Positions 4,619 through 34,519 of a stretch of 64,000 nucleotides of DNA are shown one piece after another. Numbering within the stretch: the first letter of the stretch is position 1; each line of letters begins with the position of its first letter. A model generated the notes under the pieces. It saw only the letters and a program-made list of their open reading frames with translations. It was not told where the DNA came from and did no database searches. Position numbers and translations under genes: made by a program. Origin of the DNA: Bacteroidales bacterium. GTDB lineage: Bacteria; Bacteroidota; Bacteroidia; Bacteroidales; P3. Location of the stretch: the NCBI GenBank assembly GCA_017940465.1, contig JAGAYN010000016.1:1-64000 (forward strand). Direction: 5' to 3'.

Positions 4619-6388
4619 TTAGTTCTCTTCTTTCAGCTTCTGGAAGATATCCAGGTCGCCGAGGGTAGTCTTCTCGAGGCTCTCGTTGATCTGCTTGACC
4701 GACTTGGAGGTGTTGCGGCTCTTCTTCTCGTCGCCTTCGCTGCGGGTATCGGTGCCCTCCTGGAAGGTGCGGGTGTGGGAGACGATGATTTTCTTGCTCT
4801 CTTTCGAGAACTCGATCACCTTGAAGTCGAGGGTCTCGCCGTTCTTGGCCTTGCTCTTGTCCTCCTTGTCGAGGTGACGCATGGGGGCGAAGGCTTCCAC
4901 GTCGTAGGGGAGCATCACGGTGGCACCCTTGTCATTCATGTTCACGATCTTGCCCTGGTGGACGCTGCCGACCGAGAAGAGGCTCTCGTAGACATCCCAG
5001 GGGTTCTCCTCGAGCTGCTTGTGGCCGAGGCTGAGGCGGCGGTTCTCGGCGTCGACCTCAAGGACGACGACGTCGATCTTCTCACCGATCTTGGTGAACT
5101 CGGCGGGGTGCTTGATTTTCTTGCTCCAGCTGAGGTCGCTGATATGGATGAGACCGTCGACGCCCTCCTCCAGCTCGACGAAGATGCCGAAGTTGGTGAA
5201 GTTGCGCACCGTGGCGGTGTGCTTGCTTCCGACGGGGTATTTCTCGGCGATGCTGAGCCAGGGGTCGGGCATGAGCTGGCGGATGCCGAGGCTCATCTTG
5301 CGGTTTTCGCGGTCGAGGTTGAGGATGACGGCCTCCACCTCGTCGCCCACCTTCAGGAAGTCCTGGGCGGAACGCAGGTGCTGGCTCCAGCTCATCTCGC
5401 TGACGTGGATGAGGCCTTCCACGCCGGGCATCACTTCCACGAAGGCGCCGTAGTCGGCCAGGACCACCACCTTGCCCTTGATGTGGTCGCCTTCCTTGAG
5501 GTTGGCGTCGAGGGCATCCCAGGGGTGAGGCGTGAGCTGCTTGAGGCCGAGGGCGATGCGGCGCTTGGCCTCGTCGAAGTCGAGGATGACGACGTTGATC
5601 TTCTGGTCCAGCTGGACAATCTCTTCGGGGTGGCTGATGCGGCCCCAGCTGAGGTCGGTGATGTGGATGAGACCGTCCACGCCGCCGAGGTCGACGAAGA
5701 CACCGTAGGAGGTGATGTTCTTCACCACGCCCTCCAGCACCTGACCCTTCTCGAGGTGGCTGATGATTTCGGCCTTCTGGGCCTCGATCTCGTCCTCGAT
5801 GAGGGCCTTGTGGCTGACGACGACGTTCTTGTACTCGTGGTTGATTTTCACCACCTTGAACTCCATCTGCTTGTCGACATAGACGTCGTAGTCGCGGATG
5901 GGCTTGACGTCGATCTGGCTGCCGGGGAGGAATGCCTCGATGTTCTCGAAGACGGTGACGATGAGACCGCCCTTGGTGCGGCTCTTGACGTGGCCGGTGA
6001 TGATCTCCTGGCTCTCGTAGGCCTGGTTGACGCGCTCCCAGCTCTTGAGGATGCGGGCCTTGCGGTGGCTGAGCTGCAGCTGGCCGTTGGCGTCCTCCTG
6101 GCTGTCGACATAGACCTCGATCTTGTCGCCCACCTTCAGGTCGGGGTTGTAGCGCACCTCGGCGGCGGGGATGACACCGTCGCTCTTGGCGCCGACGTTC
6201 ACCACCACTTCGCGGTCGGTGATGGCCACGATGGTGCCTTCGATGACGTCCTGTTCGGTGAACGAGTTGAACGACTTGTCGTAGGCGTCGTTCTTCTCGT
6301 CGGCCTTCTGCACGGCGATTTTGCCCGCTTTTTCGTTCACGGCATCCCAATCGAAGTCGGCCAGGGGTTTCACATTCTTGTAATCCAT
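4619..6388 (-). CDS. rpsA: 30S ribosomal protein S1
   Basis: This 589-residue RNA-binding protein delivers mRNA to the 30S ribosomal subunit. Six S1 (OB-fold) repeats can be followed at about residues 45-115, 133-200, 220-290, 305-375, 392-462 and 478-546. The central ones carry the usual GVFVDLGGVDGLIHITDLSW-like core. An acidic N-terminal arm (MDYKNVKPLADFDWD) and a charged C-terminal tail flank them. The start at 6388 is chosen over an in-frame ATG at 6430 because family members begin at this arm. The promoter is at 6505, and the region upstream holds an 11-bp tandem repeat. Confidence 0.96.
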   Translation of the reverse strand: MDYKNVKPLADFDWDAVNEKAGKIAVQKADEKNDAYDKSFNSFTEQDVIEGTIVAITDREVVVNVGAKSDGVIPAAEVRYNPDLKVGDKIEVYVDSQEDANGQLQLSHRKARILKSWERVNQAYESQEIITGHVKSRTKGGLIVTVFENIEAFLPGSQIDVKPIRDYDVYVDKQMEFKVVKINHEYKNVVVSHKALIEDEIEAQKAEIISHLEKGQVLEGVVKNITSYGVFVDLGGVDGLIHITDLSWGRISHPEEIVQLDQKINVVILDFDEAKRRIALGLKQLTPHPWDALDANLKEGDHIKGKVVVLADYGAFVEVMPGVEGLIHVSEMSWSQHLRSAQDFLKVGDEVEAVILNLDRENRKMSLGIRQLMPDPWLSIAEKYPVGSKHTATVRNFTNFGIFVELEEGVDGLIHISDLSWSKKIKHPAEFTKIGEKIDVVVLEVDAENRRLSLGHKQLEENPWDVYESLFSVGSVHQGKIVNMNDKGATVMLPYDVEAFAPMRHLDKEDKSKAKNGETLDFKVIEFSKESKKIIVSHTRTFQEGTDTRSEGDEKKSRNTSKSVKQINESLEKTTLGDLDIFQKLKEEN

Positions 6389-22381: not shown

Positions 22382-22942
22382 TTATGATTCATCCGATTCC
22401 TCCCGCAGCCGCACCAGGCAGAACAGCGAGTAGTTGACGATGTCCATGTAGCCGCCCTCGACACCTTCGCTCACCAGGGTGCGGCCCTGGTGGTCTTCGA
22501 TCTGCTTGATGCGGAGGAGCTTCATGAGGATGAGGTCCACCATCGACTCGATGCGCATCTGCCGCCAGGCTTCGCCGTAGTCGTGGTTCTTGTCCATCAT
22601 CAGGTCGAGGATGCGGTTGATGTGCCGGTCGTAGAGTTCCAAGGCCTGGGACAGGGGTAGTTCGAGGGGTTCCGTGGCGGAGAGCTCCTGCTGCACCAAG
22701 GCCATGACGGCATAGTTCACCATGGCCACAAACTCGCCCCGTATGCCGTCGCCCACGCGGTTCTCGCCGCTCTCCTGCAGGCTGCGGATGCGGTTGGCCT
22801 TGATGTAGATCTGGTCGGTCAGCGAGGGCAGGCGCAGGATGCGCCACGAGGTGCCGTAGTCGCGCGTCTTCTTCTCGAACAGGCTGCGGCACGCTGCCAC
22901 CTCGCGTTCCATCTCGCTTCGGGTATCTGCACATTCAGTCAT
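22382..22942 (-). CDS. DUF1599 domain protein (two tandem copies)
   Basis: This 186-residue protein contains two related halves. KKTRDYGTSWRILRLPSLTDQIYIKANRIR (two blocks of the family) at about 25-54 is echoed by DKNHDYGEAWRQMR and the LILMKLLRIKQIE block at about 115-145. This duplication is the family norm; it is placed among nucleotide-modification-associated domains, but the function is not established. The start at 22942 lies nearly on the predicted transcription start, so either the message is almost leaderless or the second Met (22912) is used. Confidence 0.85.
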   Translation of the reverse strand: MTECADTRSEMEREVAACRSLFEKKTRDYGTSWRILRLPSLTDQIYIKANRIRSLQESGENRVGDGIRGEFVAMVNYAVMALVQQELSATEPLELPLSQALELYDRHINRILDLMMDKNHDYGEAWRQMRIESMVDLILMKLLRIKQIEDHQGRTLVSEGVEGGYMDIVNYSLFCLVRLREESDES

Positions 22943-23073
22943 AACGCAAACATAACGCCCGCGTCATATTTTTATTGTATCCATAGATTAAATATTCCTT
23001 CTATGGGTCTGTTTCGGGCGGTCGGCCGGGGCAGACGTACCAGGTCCGGCATAAAGGCCAGAGGCTACCTTCC

Positions 23074-23213
23074 TGGTATCCTCCAGGTATCTTCTAGGTA
23101 TCCCCTAGGTATCCTTTAGGTATCCCCCTGGTATCTTCTAGGTATCTTCTAGGTATCCTCCAGGTATCCCCTAGGTATTTACTTCGACTGAGAACCGATA
23201 TGAACGGATATGA
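23074..23213 (-). repeat. 11-bp-period element family 1, copy 2 (longest tail)
   Basis: The core (23179-23213 on the minus strand, CAGTCGAAGTAAATACC) is followed by about nine 11-bp units of the type CCTAGAAGATA or CCTAGGGGATA. It is the longest tail of the four copies. It lies 130-270 bases upstream of the DUF1599 gene and just before the palindromic-repeat island. Confidence 0.9.
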
Positions 23214-23281
23214 CCCCCATCTTGTGGAGCGCCCGTCGTAGGCGTCCAGACCTGCCTCATGGGGCAGGCCATGAAACGGAA

Positions 23282-23325
23282 GCGCTCCCCACTGCGCAGG
23301 GATGTTCGGTTTTATCTATTAAACG
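23282..23325 (+). pseudogene. Probable deletion remnant of an ATPase unit
   Basis: Bases 23282-23299 resemble the TGCGCA-CTCCAC-TGCGCA boxes found upstream of the ATPase gene at 25460. Bases 23300-23323 are identical, for 24 bases, to the last codons and stop of that gene (26616-26639, encoding MFGFIY and TAA). The two pieces are fused directly, as if about 1.2 kb of coding sequence had been lost. A palindromic repeat unit follows both. Confidence 0.55.
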
Positions 23326-24296
23326 AAAGCCCCGACGGGGCATAGGGCATGGGTGTGGATCGGGGGCGGGTGGCTATTAAACGGATGCCCCGATGGGGCA
23401 GTTTTTTTGAGGGGGGGGCATACACGGATTCTATTAAGCGAAAGCCCCGATGGGGCAATTACGCCGTAGGCGTTTCCGTTTCATAGACAGACACATGGCA
23501 CAGCGTGATTTTTACGCCGTAGGCGTTTTCGTTTAATAGACAGATACGCAGCATGGTGTAGATGGCTACGCCGTAGGCGTTCTCGTTTAATAGACAGACA
23601 CGCGGCACAGCGTAGACAATTACGCCGTAGGCGTTTCCGTTTAATAGACAGATACGCAGCATGGTGTAGATGGCTACGCCGTAGGCGTTCTCGTTTAATA
23701 GACAGACGCGCAGCGCAGCGTAGACAATTACGCCGTAGGCATTTCCGTTTAATAGACAGATACGCAGCATGGTGTAGATGGCTACGCCGTAGGCGTTCTC
23801 GTTTAATAGACAGACACGCGGCACAGCGAGATTTTTACGCCGTAGGCGTTTCCGTTTCATAGACAGACGCGCAGCGCAGCGTAGACAATTACGCCGTAGG
23901 CGCTTCCGTTTCGTTGTTGGAGACAGATTATTAAACGAAAGCGCCTACGGCGCAGGTTGGATGGGTAGGCAAATACGGATTCTATTAAACGGATGCTCCG
24001 ATGGAGCAATTACGCCGTAGGCGTTTCCGTTTCATAGACAGACGCGCAGCGCAACGTAGGCAGTTACGCCGTAGGCGTTGCCGTTTCATAGACAGACACA
24101 TGGCACAGCGTGATTTTTACGCCGTAGGCGTTTCCGTTTCATAGACAGCTATACGAAAAAACAACATTACGCCGTAGGCGCTTCCGTTTCATAGACAGCT
24201 ACACGAAAAAACAACATTGCGCCGTAGGCGCTTTCGTTTCATAGACAGCTATACGAAAAAAAACAACATTGCGCCGTAGGCGCTTCCGTTTAATCG
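23320..24296. repeat. Palindromic (REP-like) repeat block left of the RAYT gene
   Basis: The block contains about twenty units of the form CTATTAAACGGA followed by a hairpin of 5-bp stem and 3-base loop (for example GCGCC-TAC-GGCGC or GCCCC-GAT-GGGGC). Five point rightwards and about fifteen leftwards. Leftward units at 23460, 23513, 23567, 23621, 23675, 23729, 23783, 23836 and 23890 form a regular 53-54-bp tandem array. A second array at 24011-24296 has 50-54-bp spacing. The gaps between units are not unique: two types alternate. No gene is seen in 22943-24371. Confidence 0.9.
23890..24040. repeat. 151-bp direct duplication, left copy
   Basis: This segment matches 25179-25329 over 151 bases with about ten differences by eye. 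Each copy contains a leftward unit, the box GTTGTTGGAGACAGATTAT, two rightward units and a final leftward unit. The copies flank the transposase gene as direct repeats 1.29 kb apart. Confidence 0.85.
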
Positions 24297-24371
24297 TCCC
24301 CCATCCTTCCCACCCTTGCACACTATACAATAAAATACACCATTGCACGTTATTTACCATAAAAAAACATT

Positions 24372-24839
24372 ATGGCAAACACTTACAACCAAATCTACAT
24401 CCATCTGGTCTTCGCCGTAAAATACCGCGATGCCGCTATCGACAAATCGTGGAGGGACCGACTATATCAATACACCATAGCCCTGGTGGAAGCACGTGGG
24501 CATAAGGTGTACGCCATCGGCGGCATGTACGACCACATCCACATACTTGTCAGTCTGGCGCCAAAACAAGCCATATCGGAGTTAGTGATGGAGGTGAAGC
24601 GCGCAACAACATTGTGGATAAAGGAGAAAGGCCTGGTCCGGTGCCGGTTTGCCTGGCAGGAAGGCTTCGGCGCGTTTTCCTATGGGAAGTCACAGGTGGA
24701 CAATGTTGTGAAATACATCATGAACCAAGAGCAGCACCACGGGAAACATACATTCCGCGAAGAATACGAAGCGTTTTTGAAAACTTTCGGCGTGGAATAC
24801 GACGAGCGTTACACGTTCAAACCATTGGAGGATAATTAA
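24372..24839 (+). CDS. Y1 (HUH) transposase of the RAYT/IS200-like type
   Basis: This 155-residue single-strand DNA transposase has the HUH motif as YDHIHILV (about residues 56-63). The catalytic Tyr lies in the helix VDNVVKYIMNQEQHH (about 117-131), as in REP-associated tyrosine transposases. The WQEGFGAFSYGKSQ block is typical of the Transposase_17 family. Palindromic units flank it in inverted orientation, leftward units ending at 24296 and a rightward unit starting at its stop codon. No TnpB/IscB partner is present. The TAA stop belongs to the repeat unit. Base composition is lower in GC than the neighbours, consistent with acquisition. No promoter motif was recognised. Confidence 0.92.
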   Translation: MANTYNQIYIHLVFAVKYRDAAIDKSWRDRLYQYTIALVEARGHKVYAIGGMYDHIHILVSLAPKQAISELVMEVKRATTLWIKEKGLVRCRFAWQEGFGAFSYGKSQVDNVVKYIMNQEQHHGKHTFREEYEAFLKTFGVEYDERYTFKPLEDN

Positions 24840-25331
24840 ACGAAAGCCCCGATGGGGCATGGGGTGTGGGATGGGGTGTAGGGATGTCAATTAAACGGAA
24901 GCGCCTACGGCGCAGGGGTGGTGGTATTATACATGTATTCTATTAAACGGGATGCCCCGACGGGGCAATTACTCCGTAGGCGCTTCCGTTTCATAGACAG
25001 ATGCGCGGCGCAGTCGGTTACTCCGTAGGCGCTTCCGTTTCATAGACAGACACGCAGCACAGCGTAGACAGTTACGCCGTAGGCGTTTACGTTTCATAGA
25101 CAGACATGCAGCGCGAAGTAGACGGTTACGCCGTAGGCGTTGCCGTTTCATAGACAAGCATGTAATACAACACAATATTACGCCGTAGGCGTTTCCGTTT
25201 CGTTGTTGGAGACAGATTATTTAACGAAAGCACCTACGGCGCAGGTTGGGTGGGTAGGCAAAAACGGATTCTATTAAACGGATGCCCCGACGGGGCAATT
25301 ACGCCGTAGGCGTTTCCGTTTCATAGACAAC
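24837..25331. repeat. Palindromic (REP-like) repeat block right of the RAYT gene
   Basis: The block begins at the stop codon of the transposase. Rightward units at about 24837, 24894, 24944, 25224 and 25274 and leftward units at 24970, 25019, 25073, 25127, 25179 and 25301 use the same stems as the left block. There is no gene in 24840-25459; the last 130 bases hold the TGCGCA boxes and the ATPase promoter. Confidence 0.9.
25179..25329. repeat. 151-bp direct duplication, right copy
   Basis: This is the second copy of the segment at 23890-24040. The third hairpin has GCCCC/GGGGC where the left copy has GCTCC/GGAGC, a paired change that keeps the stem intact. Confidence 0.85.
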
Positions 25332-25416
25332 TGCGCACTCCATTGCGCATAAAACGACTAAAATTGCGCACTCCACTGCGCAGAAAATAGCAAAAAATTG
25401 CACACTCCACTGCGCA
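25332..25416 (+). promoter_or_regulatory. Three TGCGCA-N6-TGCGCA boxes upstream of the ATPase gene
   Basis: The 18-bp box occurs at 25332-25349, 25365-25382 and 25399-25416, spaced 33 and 34 bases, each followed by an A-rich stretch. The half-site TGCGCA is itself palindromic. The last box ends 18 bases before the promoter -7 element, so the array is placed like an operator. A weakened fourth box survives in the remnant at 23282. Confidence 0.6.
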
Positions 25417-25433
25417 GTTTTGAATTTTAATCG

Positions 25434-25441
25434 TATATTTG
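25434..25441 (+). promoter_or_regulatory. Promoter -7 element of the ATPase gene
   Basis: TATATTTG fits the consensus, with a TTTTG-type -33 region about 17 bases upstream. The ATG at 25460 follows after 18 bases. Confidence 0.65.
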
Positions 25442-25459
25442 CAAAAAAAACTGCAGCCC

Positions 25460-26638
25460 ATGGAAAGCCTGATCGAATCATACAAGTCTCTGTTATACAG
25501 AACAGATACAACCTTTATCCGCTATCTGCACGACCAGATAAACTGGCAGTCGCGGCTAGTGGCCCTCCTGGGTACCCGCGGTGTCGGCAAGACCACCATG
25601 ATCCTGCAGCACATAAAGCTGCACGACAACCCCGACCAGTCGCTGTACGTGCTCGCCGACGACTTCTACTTCGCGAGCCACCGCCTGTTCGACCTGGCCC
25701 AGGACTTCTACCGGCAAGGAGGAAAGAAACTGTATATCGACGAGATACACAAATACCGGAACTGGTCGGTGGAGATAAAAAACATCTACGACAAACTGCC
25801 CGACCTGCAGGTGGTCTACACCGGCTCGTCCATCCTGGACCTGGAGCAGGGCGGGGCCGACCTCAGCCGCCGAAAAATAGAGTACGTCCTGCCCGGCCTC
25901 TCGTTGCGCGAGTACATCAACATCACCCACAGCATGAACCTCGCCCCACACAGCCTGACCGACATACTGCATGGAGACATCGACTTCCCGCTACGCGACC
26001 TGCGCCCCCTGCAGCTTCTCGCCGACTACATGAAGACCGGCTATTACCCCTTCTTCCGCGATGACGACTATATGCTTCGCCTGAACGGCATCCTGAAACA
26101 GGTCGTGGAATTCGACATCCCGCAGTTCGCCGACTTCAACGCAGTCTCCATCCTGAAACTCAAGAAACTGATCTATATGCTGGCACAGTCCGTCCCCTTC
26201 AAACCCAACTATTCCAAACTGGAACGGGACCTCGACATACGCCGGAACACCCTCCCCACCTATATGCACCTGCTGGAAAAGGCCGGACTGATAAGCCTGT
26301 TGCCCGAAAAGAGCGACGGAATCAAGCTGCTGGAGAAAATCGACAAAGTCTATCTGCAAAACCCCAACATCGCACACACCCTCTCCGCCTCCACGCCCGA
26401 CAAAGGGTCGTTGCGCGAGAGCATGTTCCTCGCCTGGATGAACGTGGGGCACCGCGTTACAGCCTCGCCGGTGGCCGACTTCGAGATAGACGGGCTCACT
26501 TTCGAAGTGGGTGGCAAAGGAAAAAGCCGCCGCCAGTTGGCCACCCTGGACCCCGAACGCGCCTATGTGGTAAAAGACGACATCGAACATGCCGCCCTCC
26601 ACAGTATCCCTCTCTGGATGTTCGGTTTTATCTATTAA
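25460..26638 (+). CDS. DUF4143-type AAA ATPase
   Basis: This 392-residue ATPase has the Walker A LLGTRGVGKTT (about residues 32-42), Walker B KKLYIDEIHKY and a sensor-like VVYTGSSIL. The C-terminal half has a winged-helix-like segment (NTLPTYMHLLEKAGLISLL) and a DUF4143/nuclease-like end (FEIDGLTFEVGGKGK), with Glu and Lys placed as in PD-(D/E)XK folds. Family members are frequent, multi-copy and of unknown function in Bacteroidales; some are proposed to act in DNA transactions or host defence, which is not shown here. The ATG at 25460 is preferred to an in-frame TTG at 25439 inside the promoter. The stop lies within a palindromic unit. Confidence 0.85.
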   Translation: MESLIESYKSLLYRTDTTFIRYLHDQINWQSRLVALLGTRGVGKTTMILQHIKLHDNPDQSLYVLADDFYFASHRLFDLAQDFYRQGGKKLYIDEIHKYRNWSVEIKNIYDKLPDLQVVYTGSSILDLEQGGADLSRRKIEYVLPGLSLREYINITHSMNLAPHSLTDILHGDIDFPLRDLRPLQLLADYMKTGYYPFFRDDDYMLRLNGILKQVVEFDIPQFADFNAVSILKLKKLIYMLAQSVPFKPNYSKLERDLDIRRNTLPTYMHLLEKAGLISLLPEKSDGIKLLEKIDKVYLQNPNIAHTLSASTPDKGSLRESMFLAWMNVGHRVTASPVADFEIDGLTFEVGGKGKSRRQLATLDPERAYVVKDDIEHAALHSIPLWMFGFIY

Positions 26639-26717
26639 ATCGAAAGCGCCTACGGCGCAGGGGCGGTGGTGGGATGGACGGGATGTCTATTAAACGAAAG
26701 CGCCTACGGCGCAGGGG
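26636..26717 (+). repeat. Two palindromic (REP-like) units after the ATPase gene
   Basis: Two rightward units with GCGCC-TAC-GGCGC stems start at 26636 and about 26690. The first shares the TAA stop of the ATPase gene. They end the island. Confidence 0.85.
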
Positions 26718-26740
26718 TGTTTGGAGGCGGGCGGGGCGGG

Positions 26741-26779
26741 GAAAAATGCGTCAGCGCCCCGCCGGATGGCGGGGCGCTG
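26741..26779 (-). terminator. Terminator of the giant surface-protein gene
   Basis: CAGCGCCCCGCC (26752-26763) pairs perfectly with its complement (26768-26779) over a GGAT loop. On the minus strand it is followed by GCATTTTTC, an intrinsic terminator 27 bases behind the stop codon at 26806. Confidence 0.85.
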
Positions 26780-26805
26780 GCCCTTTCATTTCGTGGGTGG
26801 GTTCG

Positions 26806-29800
26806 TCAGTATATACGGATATCGTCGATGGCCGGATTGCCAGAACCGCCGCTGCCGTCGTTGAGCCAGATGAAGACCAGCTTGTAGTTGCCATTGGTGG
26901 GCACGGTAAAGGTTGCGGAGCGGTTTGCCCAATCACTGGCAGAGTTGAGCTTTCCGGGTATCAAATCTATCCAGCCCGAGGGGACTTGGGTTTGGAAATT
27001 GTTGGTTGAGGTTGAGGTTCCGGTGTGAGTGGTGCTGGGCGTCTGGGCGTCCGGGACTAGGAAGACGCGGAAGAAGTCGAAGTTCTCCTCGCCTTGGCCC
27101 CTCCAGCTGAAGTTCAAATTGTGGGTGCCGGCGGTGAAGCTGACGGTGCGGTATGCGAAGACGATGCTGGTGGAAATAGTGCGGTATGAGTTGGAGGTTC
27201 CACTGTCGCTGGAGATATACAGAGAGCGTGACCCGGTATTGGCGGCGGCGGTACCGATGTACCACTTGTTGGTGTAGGACCCGTTGTCGAGCGTCCAGGT
27301 GGCGTTGTCGTCGGTGTCCTCGAAGCCCGTGGCGTAGATTAATGGTTGGAAGGTGGCGGTGTAGGTGGCATCGCCCGTGACGGTTACGATGCGGGGGTTG
27401 TCGGTGTTGCCGTCGTTCCACTGTATGAAAGCATATCCGTTGCTGCTGGGGGTGGCGGTGAGGGTTATGTAGCTGCCGGTACGGAAGGTGCCGCCGCCGG
27501 TGACGGTGCCATGGGAGGCGTTGTCGGTCTCGACCGTGATCTGGTAAGAATCACCGCCGGAGACGGCGCGGACGTTGAACCCATAGAAGCGGCCTTCGCC
27601 ATACATACCGCTATAGAAATTATTATTAAATTCGAAGTAGATGTCGACGCCATTGTCTGCGGTAATGCCACGCGTCGAGCTCCAATAGCAGGGACCACCG
27701 TAGATATTGGTAGTATTGGTACCGTTCTTGTATCCAGTGGTGGGCAAGAAGATGGAGTTACCGTTGATCCTGCTGGTAAACCTGTAGCCGCTGATACGGT
27801 TCACAGTAGCATTCGATTTGGTGCAGTTGTCAAACAACTCCTGCCAATTCGCTGCCGAAGGCATATATGCGTTGCCACCCAAGCGCTGCGTGGCCACGTC
27901 GTCCGCCGGGTCGAGGGTCATCTTGCCATCGGCACCGTTGTACTTCGTCCATGTTGAGTTGTTGCCGCCATAGTAGGCTGTGGTGGTCCATGAGTAGTTG
28001 ATCTTCTCGGTGGTCTCGGCCCAGGCGTAGTAGCCGCCGGTGCCCTCGGGGCTGGTCGCATCGACATTGCGGTCGGCCCAGAGCAATCCGCTGGGCAGGC
28101 CCAGGTCGATCCAGCGCGTGACGTTCTCACCGAACTCGGCGGTGAGGGAGAGGTCTTCGGTTGCGAAGAAGGTGCGCGGGTTGGCGTTCGAGCCGTCGCT
28201 CCACTGCACGAACATGTAGCCCGCGTTAGGCGTAGCCTGGAGGGTTACACGCGTATCTTCAAAATAGGTGCCGTCGCCGGTGACGGTGCCCCACGAGGCG
28301 TTGTTGGGCACGGCGGTGATGGTGTACTGCGGGATGGGCTCGAAGAAGGCGGTGTAGGTAGCGTTGGCGGTGACGGTGATGGTGCGGGGGTTGGTGGTCA
28401 CAAAGTCATTCCAGTGGGTGAAGCGGTAGCCTGTGTTGGCTTCGGCCAGGATGGAAACCGATGTGCCTTCGAGGTAGGAAAAGCTGTAGGCGCCATTTTC
28501 TAACCAAGCGTTGCCCGCGACACCGCCGCTGGGGCTACACGCCACGTTGATGGTGTAGGTGGGGATGACCTCGAAGATGGCGGTGAGCGAGAGGTTGGAC
28601 GTCAGGCTGAGGGTGCGGGGGTTGTAGGTCTCGTTGTCGCTCCAGCGGCGGAAGAGGTAGCCCTCGGCGGGCGTGGCGCTGATGCTGGTGATCTCGCCCT
28701 CGTAGAAGGTGCCGCTGCCGGAGACGGAGCCGTAGGCGGCATTGTTGGGGGAGACGGTGAGGGTATACTGCGGGATGTTTTCCAGCAGGGCGGTGTAGGT
28801 GGCGTCGCCGGTCACCTTGACCGTGCGGGGGTTGTAGGGCACGCCGTCGCTCCAGCCGGTGAAGCGGATGCCGGTGTTGGGCGTGGCCTCGATGGTCACG
28901 TTGGCATCCATCGGGTGGCTGCCGCCGCCGGTGAAGGTGCCGAGGGAGGGGTTGTTGGCCGTGACGGTGATGGTGGCGTTGTAGGTGGCCTCGAACTCGG
29001 CGGTGTAGGTGGCGTCGCCGCTCACGGAGACGGTGCGGGGGTTGGAGGTGTTGCCGTCGCTCCAGCGCACGAAGCGGTAGCCTGCGTTGGGGGTGGCGGA
29101 GATGACCACATCCTGGTCGGGGCTGTAGGAGCCGCCGCCGGAGGCGGAACCCATCGAGGGGTTGGCGGAGGAGACGGTGATGGAAATCGAGCCGGTGGTG
29201 GCGCCGTCGCCGCCGATGACGACGCGGGTGTCGCCGATGACCTTGGCGGCGTTTCCGCCGCCGTAGACGTTGCCCTGGACGGTGCCGTGGCGGATGAGCA
29301 CCTTGGTGGCGTAGTCCTCGTCATGGAGGTCTATCACGGCGGGCTGGCCGTGGCCGCCGCCGAAGACATTCTGTCCGACGGTGCCGGAGAACATTTCGAC
29401 CACGGGGGTGTAGTTGTCCGAGCCGGTGCCGTAGGGGGCGTTGCGGCCGCCGCCGTAGACGCTGCCGTGGACCACGGGGCGGTTGCGGTGGGCGAGGTTG
29501 CCGTCGGCGACGCTGGCGGCCACGGAGTCGGGCGAGCCAACGTACACGTTCACCTTGCCCATGGGCTTGCCGGAGGCGTCGTTGGCGCCGTAGATATTCT
29601 CCATGACTTCGCCGCCGAGGAAGTTGACGGTGATGTCGCCGTAGGTGGTGGCGTACATGTCGCCGGGGCCGAAGCCGCCGCCGAAGACGTTGCCGTCCAC
29701 GAGGCCGGAGTAGATGTTGAGGGTGGTCTTCTTGTCGGTGTTGTAGCCGTGGCCCTGTGCGGCGGCGGTGTCTATCGAGACGGAGTAGAAGATATAGGTG

Positions 29801-32800
29801 CCGCCGGAGCCGTGGGAGGGGCTCGAGTTGAAGGTGCCGATCTGGGCCTTGGTGGTGCTGCCGGTGTTGGTGGTGCCGTTCTGGCTGCCGCCGTAGACAT
29901 CGGCCATGAGGACGGGGCCGGGGGTGCCGGCGGCGCCGATGTTGAGGGTGATGTTGCCGAAGACGGCCGTCTCCTTGCCGAGGCCGCCGCCGCAGATGAT
30001 AGCCTTGCGGCCGCGTTCGCCGACGGTGCCGCCGAGGAGGTTGATGACGACGTCTTTCTTGATGTAGCCCCAGGTGTTGGAGCCGCCGTAGATGCCGCGT
30101 TTGACGGTGCCGCCGGTCATGAGGATGTCCACCTCGGGGCCCATTTTGTGGTTGGCGCCGCCGAAGAGTCGCCCGCCGACGGTGCCGCCGAGGATGCGGA
30201 GGGTGGCCTTACCCTTGGCGGGGTAGTCGGGGTCGCCTATGTTTCTGGCGGTGCCATTATCCCAGGCGGGGTTGTAGTCGTCGCCGTCCTCGGTGTTGTT
30301 GTAGCCGTAGTTGCCGCCGCCGTAGACATCGCCTTCGACCTCGGCCTGGTCGGCGATGTAGACGAAGGAGCTGTCGACGCGTCCCATGCGGTGGTGCTTC
30401 CAGGCGTTCATGTTCCACTGGTGGTCGACCTCGACCGAGTCGGCGCGGAAGTAGTTGGGGCGTATGCCGCAACCGGCGCCGAATATCTGGCCGTCGGTGG
30501 CGCCGTTGATGCCGCAGAAGGCGGGGTGGTAGACGGTGTCGCCGACGGTGGTGTGGAGGGTGTCGCCGGAGCCGACATGGAGCGTGCCGCCGGCATAGAT
30601 CCAGGCGTTGCCGTAGTGGATGCCCTCCCACTGGTCGGAGCGGGCGTCGGAGCCGTTGACGCCGCCGGCGATCCAGGCGCGGATGATGCCGCCGGTGAGG
30701 ATCATCTGTCGGCCGCCGCCGGAGGCGGTGTAGGTGTTGCCGCCGCCGAACATGCTGCCGGTGATGATGCCGCCCTTCATGCGGATGGTGGAGACATCGT
30801 TGGGGGTGAAGGTGCCGTCGGTGTTGGGGCCCCAACCCGTAGTGGGGTTGTCAACGCCTGTCTTATACCAGCGGGTGAGGTCGTTGGTGCGGTCCCAGGC
30901 GCCGCCGGAGACGGAGCAATTGAGGAAGCCGCCCTCGATGAGCATGCGGCGCTTGCCGCGATGGTTGTTGTTGTTGGAGGCCACGTTGTAGATGGACTTG
31001 GGGGTCCAGTGGTGGGTGGAGCCGGTGCGGGTGATGCCGTCGACCGTGCTGCGGCCCCAGGGCTTGGCGGAGCCGGTGGCGCCCTCTTCGTGGCCGATGC
31101 CGCGGTCGATGTTCTCCTGGCCGACGAAGCCGCTCTTGACAATCATGTCGCTGTAGACGCTGTCCTTGTCCTGGTTGTTCATCTGGGTGGTGAAGCTGGA
31201 GACGCGGAAGGGGCGGTAGATTTTGACCTTGGCGTTCTTGTAGACCTCGTGGTAGAGCATGGAGTCGAGGCTCTCGTAGGCGCGGCCGCGGCTGGCGATG
31301 CCGACGGCCTCGTAGTCGGTGCCGAGGGCGGCGACGCGCTGCGCCTCGTCGGCGCGGTCGAAGTCGGTGCCCATGATGAAGCGGGCGTAGTTCCTTTCGC
31401 CGTGGAGGCGGTTGGCGGGGGTCTGGACGGAGTATGAGATTTCGTCGCCGGAAACCTTATATATGTTGCTTCCCTTCAACTCGTTGCCTTCCACATCCAT
31501 GTAGCCGGAGTTCCAGCCGGACATGGTCATCACGCAGCCGATGTAGCCGCTCTCGACGCGGATGGTGTAGCGGCAGTCCTCGCGGGTATAATACGCGTTG
31601 AAAGCTCGGAAGCGGGCGTCCTTGTCCACCACTTCGCCCCACTCGTTGAGGGGCTCGTTGTTGGCACTGCGCTGGCAGCCCCAGTCGCTGCGGGCCTCGC
31701 TGATGGGGCCGACGCCCCAGATGTAGTTGAAGGTACCCTTGTTGTCGTCGAACATGGGTTCGATGCCACGGCCGAGGGTGAGGTTGGCCAGGCCGTTGCC
31801 TGCGATGGTGCCCCACATGGCGGCCGGGCTGCCGTCGAGGTGGAAACCGTTGCGGGTGCCGCGGAGGCGGCTGAAGGCGAGGTACTCAAAGCGGACGTCG
31901 CAGTTGAAGGGGATGACGGAGTTCTCCGCCTTGGTAAGGCCCGGGCAGAGGTCGATGTAGGTGGCGTGACGGACGGCGCCGCGGGCGGTGGTGACGTCGG
32001 CCTTGACGGGGCCGTAGGCGGGCTCCACGCCGTCGAGGGTGCCGTTGGGGAAGACCGAGCTGTAGGTGCCGGCATGGGCGCCTTTGGCCCTGGCATCACT
32101 GACTTGCGCACGGTTTCTGTCCATGACACTGACAGTCATATAGTCGGAAGCCAACGGGAGGTAGGGGCGCACAGACTGGCTGGTGAGCGGAGGCTTCATG
32201 ACGTCGTCGCACACGATGAAGTTGCGCTCCACGCCCGCCGAGTCCCTGAGGGTGTAGTGTCCGTGGGCGCAGGCGGGGACGTTGGAGCCGTCGTGTGCAT
32301 CGTCGTAGGAGACGAACTTCACGATGGCCGGTGCCCACATGGCGGTGAAGTCGACCTCCATGTTGTTGGTGGATTCGAAGTAGAGGCGCTGGTCGGCGCG
32401 CACCATGTCGCCCACGGCGAGGGCGGTGCCGCCGGTGGGGGTGGTGAAGACGGTGCCGCCGGCGATGCGGTCGATGCGCCACTTGTAGAAGCCGCGCCAG
32501 CAGGGGGCGCCGTTGAGCGACGAGGTGGTGGCCCAGTCATAGTCGGCGGGGTCGCCGTAGGTGGGTCGGCGGGAGAAAGGGTTGAAGATGGTGCGGTACT
32601 CGACGCGGCCAGTGGCCTCGGTCTCGGCAGTCTTGCCGTCGACGCGCTCGAGGGTCATGTAGTACTCGAAGGTGTGGTACTGGCGTTCTTCCTGCGAGAT
32701 GCCGACGCTGACGTCGTCGGCGGCGGAGCTGGCCGTGAAGTCGGAGGGGCGCACGGGGACGTAGCTGTTGTAGTCGCCGAGGTTGCCCTGGTTGTAGGTG

Positions 32801-34464
32801 GTGTTGGAGGAGACGTTGTTGGTGCCGTAGCCGCGGTAGGTGATTTTGGCGTCGAGGGGGTTGAGCGAGCGCAGGGGCTTGTCCACGTCGGTGGTGTAGA
32901 GGCTCCAGGTGTGGGGCTCGAGGTCGTTGAGGACCACCGTGCCGTTGTGGGCATAGAGGCCGGTGGCGGGGGCGGAGGAGAAGTCGGTCATGAAGATGGT
33001 GACGGTGGAGCTCCATTCGCTATGGTCGCTGCCGCAGTTCGCGCGCACGCGAGCATAATAATATTGTCCCACGGTGAGGCCGGAGAAGGTGGCGGTGGTG
33101 GTGCCGACGGTCTGTGATGTGAGGAGGGAGGAGAAGCCCTCGTCGGAGGCCAGCTGCACCTCGTACTGGCTGGCGCTACCCTGCCAGGTGAGGGTGAGGT
33201 TCTCGTTGACGAGGCTGGCGATGGCAAGCCACTGGGGCTGTGGGCAGACGGTGCGGAAGGCGACGGAGGCCTCGGCATCGATGCCTGCGGCGCAGACGGT
33301 GCGCACGGTGGCGGTGTGGTCGGTGTTGGGGGCGAGGCCCGTGAAGGTGTAGGTGGGGGAGTTGACGGTTACGGGGCTGCCGCCGTCGAGGGAGACCTGC
33401 CACTGGGTGGCCGGGCCGGGCTCGGTCCACGAGAGGGTGGCCGAGGTGTAGTCGGCAGTGGCCGTGAGGTTAGTCACGGAGAGGCAGCTGGTGGTGGTGA
33501 AGTCGACCGTCGTGGGGTTGCTGGTTTCCCCGTCGCAGACGGCGGCCACGGAGACGGTGTGGGCGGTGCCGGGGGTGAGGCCGGAGACGGTGTAGGAGGT
33601 GTTGTTCACGGTCTGTGCAGCGCCGCCGTCGACGGAGACCTGCCACTGGGTGGAGCCGTTGTTGTCGGTCCACGAGAGGGCGGCCGAGGTGTAGTCGGCG
33701 GTGGCCGTGAGGTTGCTCACAGGGAGGCAGGACGCGAGGGCGGTTACCTCCACATCGTCGATACAACAGTAGCGGAGGGATCCGCCCGGGACATTGAGCT
33801 TGATGGCGATGCGCGTGGCGGTGGCGGGGGCACCGGTCAGTTCCGCCTCCACCCAGGTGCCTGACAGAGTCGCGGACGAGGCGGGGATGGTCATGAGGCT
33901 TTCGAATTGAAGATTGACGTCGGTTCCAAGGGTGGAAGCAGTGTAATTCGTCCCCGTCACGTAGCCGATATTCAGGAAAAGCTCGGACGATGCAGACGTG
34001 CTCGTGCGCAGCCAAAACCTAATCTTGAGGCTATTGACCGGCTGGTCGAACGTGGGCAGCAGCACAAAGCCTGGTGTCGGATTGGTGCCGTGGCCTGCCC
34101 TGCCGGCGAGGCTGAGGCTTTTGGTACCCGAATTGACCCATACATTAGCATTGCCACTAACGGACACGTGAGGGCCATACAACTTATTGTTAGCACTCGT
34201 AGAAGAAGTCGTGTTGAAGTAGGTGCGCCACCCTGCATTAGCCAAACCCGCATAGGTGTTGAATTTGGCGCCAGTGCCAATACCTGTGGGGTTGGCCGTT
34301 TGGGTTTCCGAATCGAAATTCTGCGTATAGGGAATGGTCTGCTGCGCCCCGGCATACGAAGCCATCAGCAGGGCGGCCACGGCCGCCAGGAGCCATTTTG
34401 CATTCTTGGCGCGCACGGCGGCGCGCTTCCATGACAGTTGTTTCTTCATATTTTTATTCTTCAT
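26806..34464 (-). CDS. Giant mosaic surface protein (FN3, GGG-beta-helix, InlB-type repeats, FISUMP)
   Basis: This 2552-residue exported protein starts with a long signal peptide ending near MASYAGAQQ. A jelly-roll-like domain (about 40-240, with the IDDVEV end) is followed by three fibronectin type III domains (about 250-510). A region of about 600 residues has no recognised family. A glycine-rich part (about 1230-1720) repeats GGTVxGxVYGGG-like turns, suggesting a beta-helix. Then come five divergent InlB B-repeats (YTVT...GYRFVRWSDG...NPRTV...ATYTAEF), a FISUMP-like domain (IDLGLPSGLLWA, YWSST), a sixth B-repeat and a C-terminal MAM/jelly-roll domain ending NPAIDDIRIY. No T9SS sorting domain is seen. 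Adhesion is inferred. The start at 34464 has AAAGGA six bases upstream; 34449 is the alternative. Confidence 0.88.
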   Translation of the reverse strand: MKNKNMKKQLSWKRAAVRAKNAKWLLAAVAALLMASYAGAQQTIPYTQNFDSETQTANPTGIGTGAKFNTYAGLANAGWRTYFNTTSSTSANNKLYGPHVSVSGNANVWVNSGTKSLSLAGRAGHGTNPTPGFVLLPTFDQPVNSLKIRFWLRTSTSASSELFLNIGYVTGTNYTASTLGTDVNLQFESLMTIPASSATLSGTWVEAELTGAPATATRIAIKLNVPGGSLRYCCIDDVEVTALASCLPVSNLTATADYTSAALSWTDNNGSTQWQVSVDGGAAQTVNNTSYTVSGLTPGTAHTVSVAAVCDGETSNPTTVDFTTTSCLSVTNLTATADYTSATLSWTEPGPATQWQVSLDGGSPVTVNSPTYTFTGLAPNTDHTATVRTVCAAGIDAEASVAFRTVCPQPQWLAIASLVNENLTLTWQGSASQYEVQLASDEGFSSLLTSQTVGTTTATFSGLTVGQYYYARVRANCGSDHSEWSSTVTIFMTDFSSAPATGLYAHNGTVVLNDLEPHTWSLYTTDVDKPLRSLNPLDAKITYRGYGTNNVSSNTTYNQGNLGDYNSYVPVRPSDFTASSAADDVSVGISQEERQYHTFEYYMTLERVDGKTAETEATGRVEYRTIFNPFSRRPTYGDPADYDWATTSSLNGAPCWRGFYKWRIDRIAGGTVFTTPTGGTALAVGDMVRADQRLYFESTNNMEVDFTAMWAPAIVKFVSYDDAHDGSNVPACAHGHYTLRDSAGVERNFIVCDDVMKPPLTSQSVRPYLPLASDYMTVSVMDRNRAQVSDARAKGAHAGTYSSVFPNGTLDGVEPAYGPVKADVTTARGAVRHATYIDLCPGLTKAENSVIPFNCDVRFEYLAFSRLRGTRNGFHLDGSPAAMWGTIAGNGLANLTLGRGIEPMFDDNKGTFNYIWGVGPISEARSDWGCQRSANNEPLNEWGEVVDKDARFRAFNAYYTREDCRYTIRVESGYIGCVMTMSGWNSGYMDVEGNELKGSNIYKVSGDEISYSVQTPANRLHGERNYARFIMGTDFDRADEAQRVAALGTDYEAVGIASRGRAYESLDSMLYHEVYKNAKVKIYRPFRVSSFTTQMNNQDKDSVYSDMIVKSGFVGQENIDRGIGHEEGATGSAKPWGRSTVDGITRTGSTHHWTPKSIYNVASNNNNHRGKRRMLIEGGFLNCSVSGGAWDRTNDLTRWYKTGVDNPTTGWGPNTDGTFTPNDVSTIRMKGGIITGSMFGGGNTYTASGGGRQMILTGGIIRAWIAGGVNGSDARSDQWEGIHYGNAWIYAGGTLHVGSGDTLHTTVGDTVYHPAFCGINGATDGQIFGAGCGIRPNYFRADSVEVDHQWNMNAWKHHRMGRVDSSFVYIADQAEVEGDVYGGGNYGYNNTEDGDDYNPAWDNGTARNIGDPDYPAKGKATLRILGGTVGGRLFGGANHKMGPEVDILMTGGTVKRGIYGGSNTWGYIKKDVVINLLGGTVGERGRKAIICGGGLGKETAVFGNITLNIGAAGTPGPVLMADVYGGSQNGTTNTGSTTKAQIGTFNSSPSHGSGGTYIFYSVSIDTAAAQGHGYNTDKKTTLNIYSGLVDGNVFGGGFGPGDMYATTYGDITVNFLGGEVMENIYGANDASGKPMGKVNVYVGSPDSVAASVADGNLAHRNRPVVHGSVYGGGRNAPYGTGSDNYTPVVEMFSGTVGQNVFGGGHGQPAVIDLHDEDYATKVLIRHGTVQGNVYGGGNAAKVIGDTRVVIGGDGATTGSISITVSSANPSMGSASGGGSYSPDQDVVISATPNAGYRFVRWSDGNTSNPRTVSVSGDATYTAEFEATYNATITVTANNPSLGTFTGGGSHPMDANVTIEATPNTGIRFTGWSDGVPYNPRTVKVTGDATYTALLENIPQYTLTVSPNNAAYGSVSGSGTFYEGEITSISATPAEGYLFRRWSDNETYNPRTLSLTSNLSLTAIFEVIPTYTINVACSPSGGVAGNAWLENGAYSFSYLEGTSVSILAEANTGYRFTHWNDFVTTNPRTITVTANATYTAFFEPIPQYTITAVPNNASWGTVTGDGTYFEDTRVTLQATPNAGYMFVQWSDGSNANPRTFFATEDLSLTAEFGENVTRWIDLGLPSGLLWADRNVDATSPEGTGGYYAWAETTEKINYSWTTTAYYGGNNSTWTKYNGADGKMTLDPADDVATQRLGGNAYMPSAANWQELFDNCTKSNATVNRISGYRFTSRINGNSIFLPTTGYKNGTNTTNIYGGPCYWSSTRGITADNGVDIYFEFNNNFYSGMYGEGRFYGFNVRAVSGGDSYQITVETDNASHGTVTGGGTFRTGSYITLTATPSSNGYAFIQWNDGNTDNPRIVTVTGDATYTATFQPLIYATGFEDTDDNATWTLDNGSYTNKWYIGTAAANTGSRSLYISSDSGTSNSYRTISTSIVFAYRTVSFTAGTHNLNFSWRGQGEENFDFFRVFLVPDAQTPSTTHTGTSTSTNNFQTQVPSGWIDLIPGKLNSASDWANRSATFTVPTNGNYKLVFIWLNDGSGGSGNPAIDDIRIY

Positions 34465-34519
34465 TTTTTTCCTTTCTATACTCTTAATATAGGTTTTCAG
34501 GGGCATTCCTCAAATGCTG

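Follow-up and report, generated by a model that had tools for sequence, protein, structure and literature searches.

Repeated hairpins with a fixed TAG beside a subclass 1.2 Y1 transposase gene suggest an overlooked branch of a known enzyme-and-repeat partnership

The first 64,000 nt of contig JAGAYN010000016.1 from a Bacteroidales bacterium (GenBank assembly GCA_017940465.1; hereafter the window) contain an island of short hairpins set closely around a gene for a HUH/Y1 transposase (Y1). The hairpins share a signal, TAG 10 nt 3' of a 5-bp stem, and hairpins of this grammar are found linked with genes of the window Y1 kind in related bacteria. We regard the island as probably an enzyme with its private single-strand hairpin substrates, working like the pair of a repetitive extragenic palindrome (REP) and its REP-associated tyrosine transposase (RAYT), and built on TnpA-Y1 subclass 1.2. 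The enzyme-substrate system is judged to be RAYT/REP-like, in a format not described before; it suggests an overlooked branch of a known enzyme-and-repeat partnership, in which many relatives have hairpin versions of their own.

The hairpin island and its transposase

The island comprises the following features (window coordinates).

23312..24300, no strand assigned: upstream hairpin array with 20 units (pattern) or 19 (covariance model)
23430..23486, no strand assigned: inverted doublet CTA-hairpin-hairpin-TAG, like a REPIN (REP doublet forming hairpins), from sequence and model matches
23981-24037, 24940-24997 and 25270-25326, no strand assigned: further similar inverted doublets, from sequence and model matches
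24372..24839, + strand: HUH/Y1 transposase gene, 155 aa + stop (H55, H57, Y115), Pfam Y1_Tnp 95.4 bits
24835..25330, no strand assigned: downstream hairpin array directly after the Y1 gene, 11 units by pattern and by model
25439..26638, + strand: AAA_14/DUF4143 ATPase gene inside the island, Pfam AAA_14 89.1 bits, DUF4143 31.9 bits
26628..26718, - strand: last two units, immediately following the ATPase gene and carrying TAG on the - strand

An initial annotation of the window had reported more than thirty hairpins around a Y1 transposase, and the counts bear this out. Searched loosely with TTAAACGRAWRCNCCNNNGGNG, allowing at most 3 mismatches, the window gave 35 matches, against 0.81 expected from 100 shuffles; with a distant match (46868) and the opposite-strand shadow of another unit (25118) left out, 33 units remain at 23319-26712, and a covariance model places 32 at 23312-26718. 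In the upstream array TAG is mostly on the + strand and same-strand spacing is ~50-54 bp. The first unit of the downstream array overlaps the Y1 stop codon, and the ATPase stop codon falls within the first of the last two units. Two units in inverted order, the arrangement of REPINs and of bacterial interspersed mosaic elements (BIMEs), are present in the four window doublets, and such pairs also occur in a related genome (G011). The annotation was right that the hairpins have a flank in common, but the form of that flank has to be corrected to CTATTAAACG or CTATGAAACG, whose best conserved part is TAG on the other strand.

The two arms of the stem change together, as had been claimed, and all four stem forms named at the time are present. 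Perfect stems among the 33 units are ACGCC/GGCGT (14), GCCCC/GGGGC (6), GCGCC/GGCGC (6) and GCTCC/GGAGC (1); wobble stems are GCGCC/GGCGT (2) and ATGCC/GGCGT (1), and three units have one mismatch (GCGCC/GGAGT in 2, GCACC/GGCGC in 1). Across the 23 distinct rows 98.3% of stem cells pair and 15 cells are changed on both sides, neither value being reached in 500 shuffles (0/500), and slid-control stems pair to 31-64% only. Since the search pattern fixes CC and GG in the stem, it is stem pairs 1 and 3 that could vary freely. From a further alignment (A2) 7 of 74 candidate units were left out beforehand (four with TAG from the next hairpin, two from locus L127 in the other orientation and one with N); as A2 was selected by pairing, its 100% paired cells hold by construction.

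The Y1 protein has the motif Y115-I-M-N-Q-E-Q-H-H, plus DHIH and WQ, and a conserved C-terminal tail, F-EEY--FL---YDE-Y. Its score of 72.7 bits against the NCBIfam IS200 model lies above the cut-off of 55, its 24.3 bits against the REP_Tyr_transpos model lie below the cut-off of 80, and in place of the RAYT NP motif it has Q-x-x-HH. The AlphaFold2 (AF2) model, based on the window protein aligned to 39 of the 80 named relatives introduced below, has a mean predicted local distance difference test score (pLDDT) of 87.5; its best PDB matches are the TnpA proteins of ISDra2 and IS608, with TnpA-REP 4er8 at rank 29.

Subclass 1.2 is described by Y---Q--HH, DH[IV]H, WQ, a length of ~148-150 aa, a specific C-terminal tail, low copy number and occurrence in Cyanobacteria and Bacteroidetes (Quentin et al. 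2018, PMC6006769). The window enzyme agrees in signature, HUH, WQ, low copy, size and tail, and judged by its Y---Q--HH signature it is a member of this subclass. It shares with RAYT class 2 the HUH motif and a catalytic Tyr on the Y1 fold, and the window family lacks the GT[AG]G that class 2 REPs carry at the 5' hairpin foot. The designation of the enzyme as RAYT-type in the initial annotation is not supported: membership by sequence is rejected on the sub-threshold REP_Tyr_transpos score and the missing NP motif, and the hairpins have no 5' GTAG foot.

The window Y1 lineage has one copy per genome in 9/9 carrier genomes. Among eight orthologs the proportion of synonymous differences (pS) is 0.73-0.95 and that of nonsynonymous differences (pN) 0.13-0.30 in all pairs except the near-identical L125/L126, the picture of old, maintained proteins under strong purifying selection. 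Being single-copy and under such selection, the enzyme behaves like a RAYT-type domesticated enzyme with private repeats. Two further Y1 relatives, L129 (genome G023, 58% identity) and L130 (G015, 52%), are each reported with one in-frame TAG and are perhaps decaying copies.

Hairpins and TAG beside related genes

A pattern search for relatives gave at least 585 matches, 567 of them relatives, and the best 80 were kept (the named loci; 47-60% identical to the window protein, mostly Bacteroidota). Here the grammar reads: 5-bp GC-rich stem, 3-4-nt loop, TAG exactly 10 nt beyond the stem. Measured from the end of the loop, TAG begins at offset 15 (5 nt of stem plus 10 nt); 212 of the 1076 oriented hairpins and 67 of the 80 loci show this, against 17 and 11 hairpins for the neighbouring offsets 14 and 16; in far windows it was seen in 8 of the 61 loci having any hairpin there. 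Because array members repeat, the locus count is the fairer one. The rule was first noticed by eye in 16 loci, which were included in the test on all 80.

Seeds for which just the inner three pairs were required and which have TAG at 15 (284 seeds, 71 loci) extend to a 5-bp stem in 75% of cases; with TAG at fourteen other offsets both outer pairs are present in 5-37%. The outer pairs vary (position 4 mainly TA/CG; position 5 GC, AT or TA), and therefore the stem covaries. Both this continuation of the outer pairs and the covariation in the island support the earlier proposal that selection acts on the hairpin fold.

Repeated hairpins lie within 1.2 kb of 58/80 genes vs 7/118 control windows (3.4 kb away, same contigs), and families of at least 3 copies beside 30/80 genes vs 2/118 control windows. 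At loci of the window's own genome and its genus they are found in 30 of 35, vs 7/54 window control positions; these 35 loci yield 114 matches at offset 15 and 75 at 14, each in 19 loci, and at most 26 at any other offset. Same-strand spacings over the 80 named loci fall within 45-59 bp in 38 of 71 cases, and 19 of the 30 named loci having spacings show at least one at 47-58 bp. A mutual-information search for a guide sequence 5' of the stem gave no clear guide; the largest signal came from a sixth stem position (f-1 paired with l1; n=109, with T-A 28, A-T 16, C-G 6, G-C 5 and A-G 26). A modest excess of TAG is seen one period upstream of first units (50 occurrences at 48-57 nt for 210 first units, compared with a mean of 3.1 per distance over 30-89 nt), for which degenerate units nearby could account. 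In a class-wide Pfam sample of 30 loci (unclassified L169, L175, L176, L184, L190, L194 and the window's own L189 left out) none of the five subclass 1.1 loci, a small sample, had TAG at 15 (0/5) or such repeats (0/5), and the single locus of another class was without TAG at 15.

The window's genome (2.24 Mb, 56 contigs, 94% complete) encodes six Y1 genes, the other five being 36-42% identical to the window Y1; the six proteins show no variation at Y, Q and HH, and WQ is present in 4/6. Beside the other five genes there are also repeated hairpins, in largest families of 2, 2, 2, 6 and 3 copies, which differ in sequence from the window units. A model of the latter (R1, built on 67 units of the window and of eight relatives) had zero matches at E <=0.01 around these five genes (L039-L041). 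At L002-L004 and nine genus loci (L131-L136, L138, L140, L141) TAG lies 14-16 nt past the loop and is immediately followed by a second hairpin, of 7-9 bp in the examples printed; in the sister lineage, L131-L135, most units have GTAG directly 5' of the second hairpin. Another Y1 subgroup (L005, L006, L143-L150) has its own repeated hairpins, mostly off the TAG rule and some of the form hairpin-AATCCTATTAACCCC.

Within its own genome the window pattern has 43 matches at <=2 mismatches vs 2 for a reversed control pattern. The island holds 32 of these; the others comprise seven at C15:11.56-11.89 kb, two at C32:117.6-117.8 kb and two isolated ones. The first group is a second array (L037 3557-3897, that is, G000 C15:11.56-11.9 kb) with 6 model and 7 pattern matches at a period of ~56 bp, and no convincing Y1 match was found within the 8 kb examined around it. 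By eye it lies upstream of an acyl-carrier-protein-like gene.

R1 was searched in 59 genomes of the genus. The nine that carry the window Y1 lineage (the window's own genome and those at 58-78% identity) show between 15 and 115 matches at E <=0.01; that they match at all is so by construction, since they supplied the model. Among the 50 without this lineage, 29 have no R1 unit and 46 have fewer than 15, but four have 17-26 units and no close Y1 detected; these counts are a partial check of the refuting condition named in the initial annotation, hairpins equally frequent in relatives lacking any Y1 transposase. A second model (R2, 14 sister-lineage units, five loci) matches all five source genomes (2-27 units) and 4 of 54 others (one to four units each). 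The two unit families are largely mutually exclusive among the 59 genomes, the exceptions being G034 (14 R1 and 4 R2), G022 (5 R1 and 10 R2) and G005 (1 R2). Taken together, a link of the TAG-grammar hairpins with genes of the window Y1 kind is supported.

Arrays and dispersed copies differ among relatives. G005 has 146 R1 matches at E <=0.005, with 26 contigs among the matches listed, and its arrays L124, L157 and L158 consist largely of units in head-to-tail order that repeat every 52-57 bp (by eye); spacers are alike inside one array (two types in L158) and unlike between arrays. In G011 lineage-B units occur on many contigs, often as inverted pairs, and one locus (L238) is a minimal hairpin-TAG-hairpin-CTA-hairpin. 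Several G011 lineage-B pairs share a segment that ends at the units (e.g. L234/L235, 404-609), and other pairs share longer stretches.

Known systems, proposed mechanism and rival explanations

In the right end of IS608, 10 nt lie between the hairpin and the cleavage site. A TAG placed 3' of the hairpin fits such a right end, the opposite strand presenting CT 5' of the hairpin, and the format of the window units resembles the IS608 right end more closely than the GTAG foot of classic REPs. Likeness to the IS200/IS605 family further extends to the TnpA fold, to the order of hairpin and then cleavage site, and to the sister group, where TAG between two hairpins is similar to a right-end/left-end junction; unlike IS608, the present system is not a multi-copy insertion sequence, has many units and uses TAG instead of TCAA/TTAC (PMC5934647). 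With RAYT/TnpA-REP systems it has in common a single-copy HUH/Y1 gene, private flanking palindromes, inverted doublets, several independent pairs per genome and, less clearly, dispersed copies in relatives, and it differs from them in lacking the NP(L/V)(R/K)xG motif and the 5' GTAG foot (Nunvar 2010, PMC2817692; PMC8266576), in having TAG 10 nt 3' of a 5-bp stem and in its head-to-tail arrays with a period of ~54 bp. Class 2 REPs likewise have CT 5' of the hairpin, as on the opposite strand here (PMC8266576). Subclass 2.6, which occurs in Bacteroidetes, and class 3 are also Y1 genes flanked by non-GTAG hairpins, but their Y motifs are YIH[QN]NP and Y----Q, respectively, and class 3 has the flank rule CnGA (PMC6006769).

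For subclass 1.2 itself the REP entry in the table of the defining paper is 'no' (PMC6006769), whereas here private hairpin families with a fixed TAG adjoin the genes, so that the absence of REP-like sequences does not describe the named loci (58/80 for repeated hairpins, 67/80 for the TAG grammar). The automatic REP rules were built on REPs with a GTAG/GTGG foot and basal stems of 7-20 nt (PMC6006769), and 5-bp stems would therefore be missed. In the open-access literature searched, with subscription papers, preprints and supplements outside the scope, we found no recognisable description of REP-like repeats for subclass 1.2 and no reported substrate for its enzymes.

Most likely, the Y1 protein would act as a dimer on single-stranded DNA with one hairpin bound, and would nick next to the TAG 10 nt 3' of the stem, with the geometry seen at IS200/IS605 right ends. 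TAG-to-TAG strand transfer could then excise and insert short segments of ~53 nt; such mobility would give rise to arrays in head-to-tail order, to inverted doublets and, in a number of relatives, to copies at other sites. The host may benefit from the activity.

Several observations weigh against this account. The 5' flank, the would-be guide site, is poorly conserved, so that either strand may be the one that is cut. The exact TAG offset is missing at 13/80 named loci, and the control windows used there are richer in coding sequence than the gene flanks. Of the 17 subclass 1.2 loci in the class-wide sample, no more than 7 carry TAG at offset 15, and 8 are flanked by repeated hairpins. Within the window's own genome the largest hairpin family at L002-L004 has 2 copies, a level also reached by 7/54 window control positions, and L005 and L006, which obey some other rule, are without any unit having TAG at 14-16. 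Genomes G002, G008, G036 and G039 hold 21, 18, 17 and 26 R1 units without a detected close Y1, no convincing match appearing around these units (best E 0.049). Finally, the dispersed copies examined in G021 and G026 sit inside a 235-bp element with the terminal inverted repeat (TIR) AACCCAAATCGGT, and another transposase may therefore move them; in these two genomes that is probably the cause of dispersal.

One rival is an ordinary IS200-family insertion sequence, whose ends would be surrounded by a cloud of decayed short copies. The IS200 cut-off passed by the protein, its TnpA-like fold and size, and a TAG geometry like that of the IS608 right end all fit this explanation. An element of the IS200/IS605 type should nevertheless have one left and one right end in near-identical copies, while the lineage here is single-copy in all nine genomes, is under strong purifying selection and has tens of units, some of them away from any detected Y1; subclass 1.1 loci, moreover, lack such repeats (0/5, as noted a small sample). 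We consider this rival unlikely. It is also improbable that the hairpins are passive, as tandem arrays made by slippage or as transcription terminators among which a Y1 gene merely sits or was trapped. Spacers that agree inside the three G005 arrays and differ between them do look like local slippage, and the four genomes rich in units without a close Y1 point the same way, but around the related genes of the 80 named loci, where unit sequences differ, both the TAG offset and covariation of the stem are found repeatedly, two lineages have largely exclusive unit families, and terminators require no TAG at a fixed distance. That other transposases spread the copies through TIR elements, Y1 using hairpins just as target or landing sites, is very unlikely. 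The 235-bp element with units in G021 and G026, and a sibling TIR element with an empty counterpart site of 6-bp overlap, speak for it. Against it are the array loci examined from G005, G018 and the window's own genome, which have no exact match to that TIR, and several G011 lineage-B pairs whose shared segment ends at units, though other pairs there share longer stretches.

The exact 13-nt TIR end was found in 33/233 loci, all from G021 and G026. L196-L209 from these genomes belong to a TIR element family with AACCCAAATCGGTYATT ends, some members with hairpin units and at least one without. A G026 counterpart of a G021 copy, considered as an empty site, was not clean.

Returning to the enzyme with private hairpin substrates, the hairpin-plus-TAG rule predicts what subclass 1.2 enzymes of Bacteroidota bind and cut, would account for one class of palindromes between genes, and makes many natural enzyme-hairpin pairs available for specificity studies. 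A wider idea, which we put forward tentatively and which may well prove too broad, is that subclass 1.2 constitutes a distinct REP system, spread through the phylum and overlooked so far. It would consist of stem-loop, 10 nt, TAG and in some lineages a second hairpin directly after it, a form linking IS200/IS605 junctions (right end, cleavage site, left end) to classic REPs (GTAG plus hairpin), with several orthogonal pairs per genome and with arrays growing by TAG-to-TAG single-strand transfer of ~53-nt units. Should the sister lineage's junction-like form prove real, it bears on the origin of REPs from insertion-sequence ends.

Neighbouring features

The hairpins do surround the Y1 gene as first annotated, but the interval then given to the island also includes the ATPase gene at 25439-26638, which is probably a bystander unrelated to the hairpins. 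Synteny with the ATPase, DUF1599 and DoxX was found in none of the other 114 Y1 loci (tblastn for the ATPase; genus flanks 1.5 kb, named flanks up to 5 kb). The 24-nt end of the ATPase gene, GGATGTTCGGTTTTATCTATTAAA (26617-26640), recurs at 23301-23324 upstream of the island, beside a piece resembling the repeat found ahead of the ATPase gene (25327-25417), an arrangement that might reflect the deletion of a second ATPase copy at this place.

Rfam gave zero matches over the gathering score for 22900-26900, the three below it being mir-7445 (x2) and P14. A Pfam match to Glyco_hydro_38C in the open reading frame 23459-23860 (- strand; 25.1 bits, cut-off 25) was taken as an artefact of the translated array. 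Upstream of the island there are tandem 11-bp repeats of the CCTAGGTATCC type (23072-23190), and sequence adjoining them recurs near another Y1 region (L039 ~6000-6090, by eye). Right after the island, 26806-34506 on the - strand encodes a repeat-rich, secreted-looking protein of 2566 aa.

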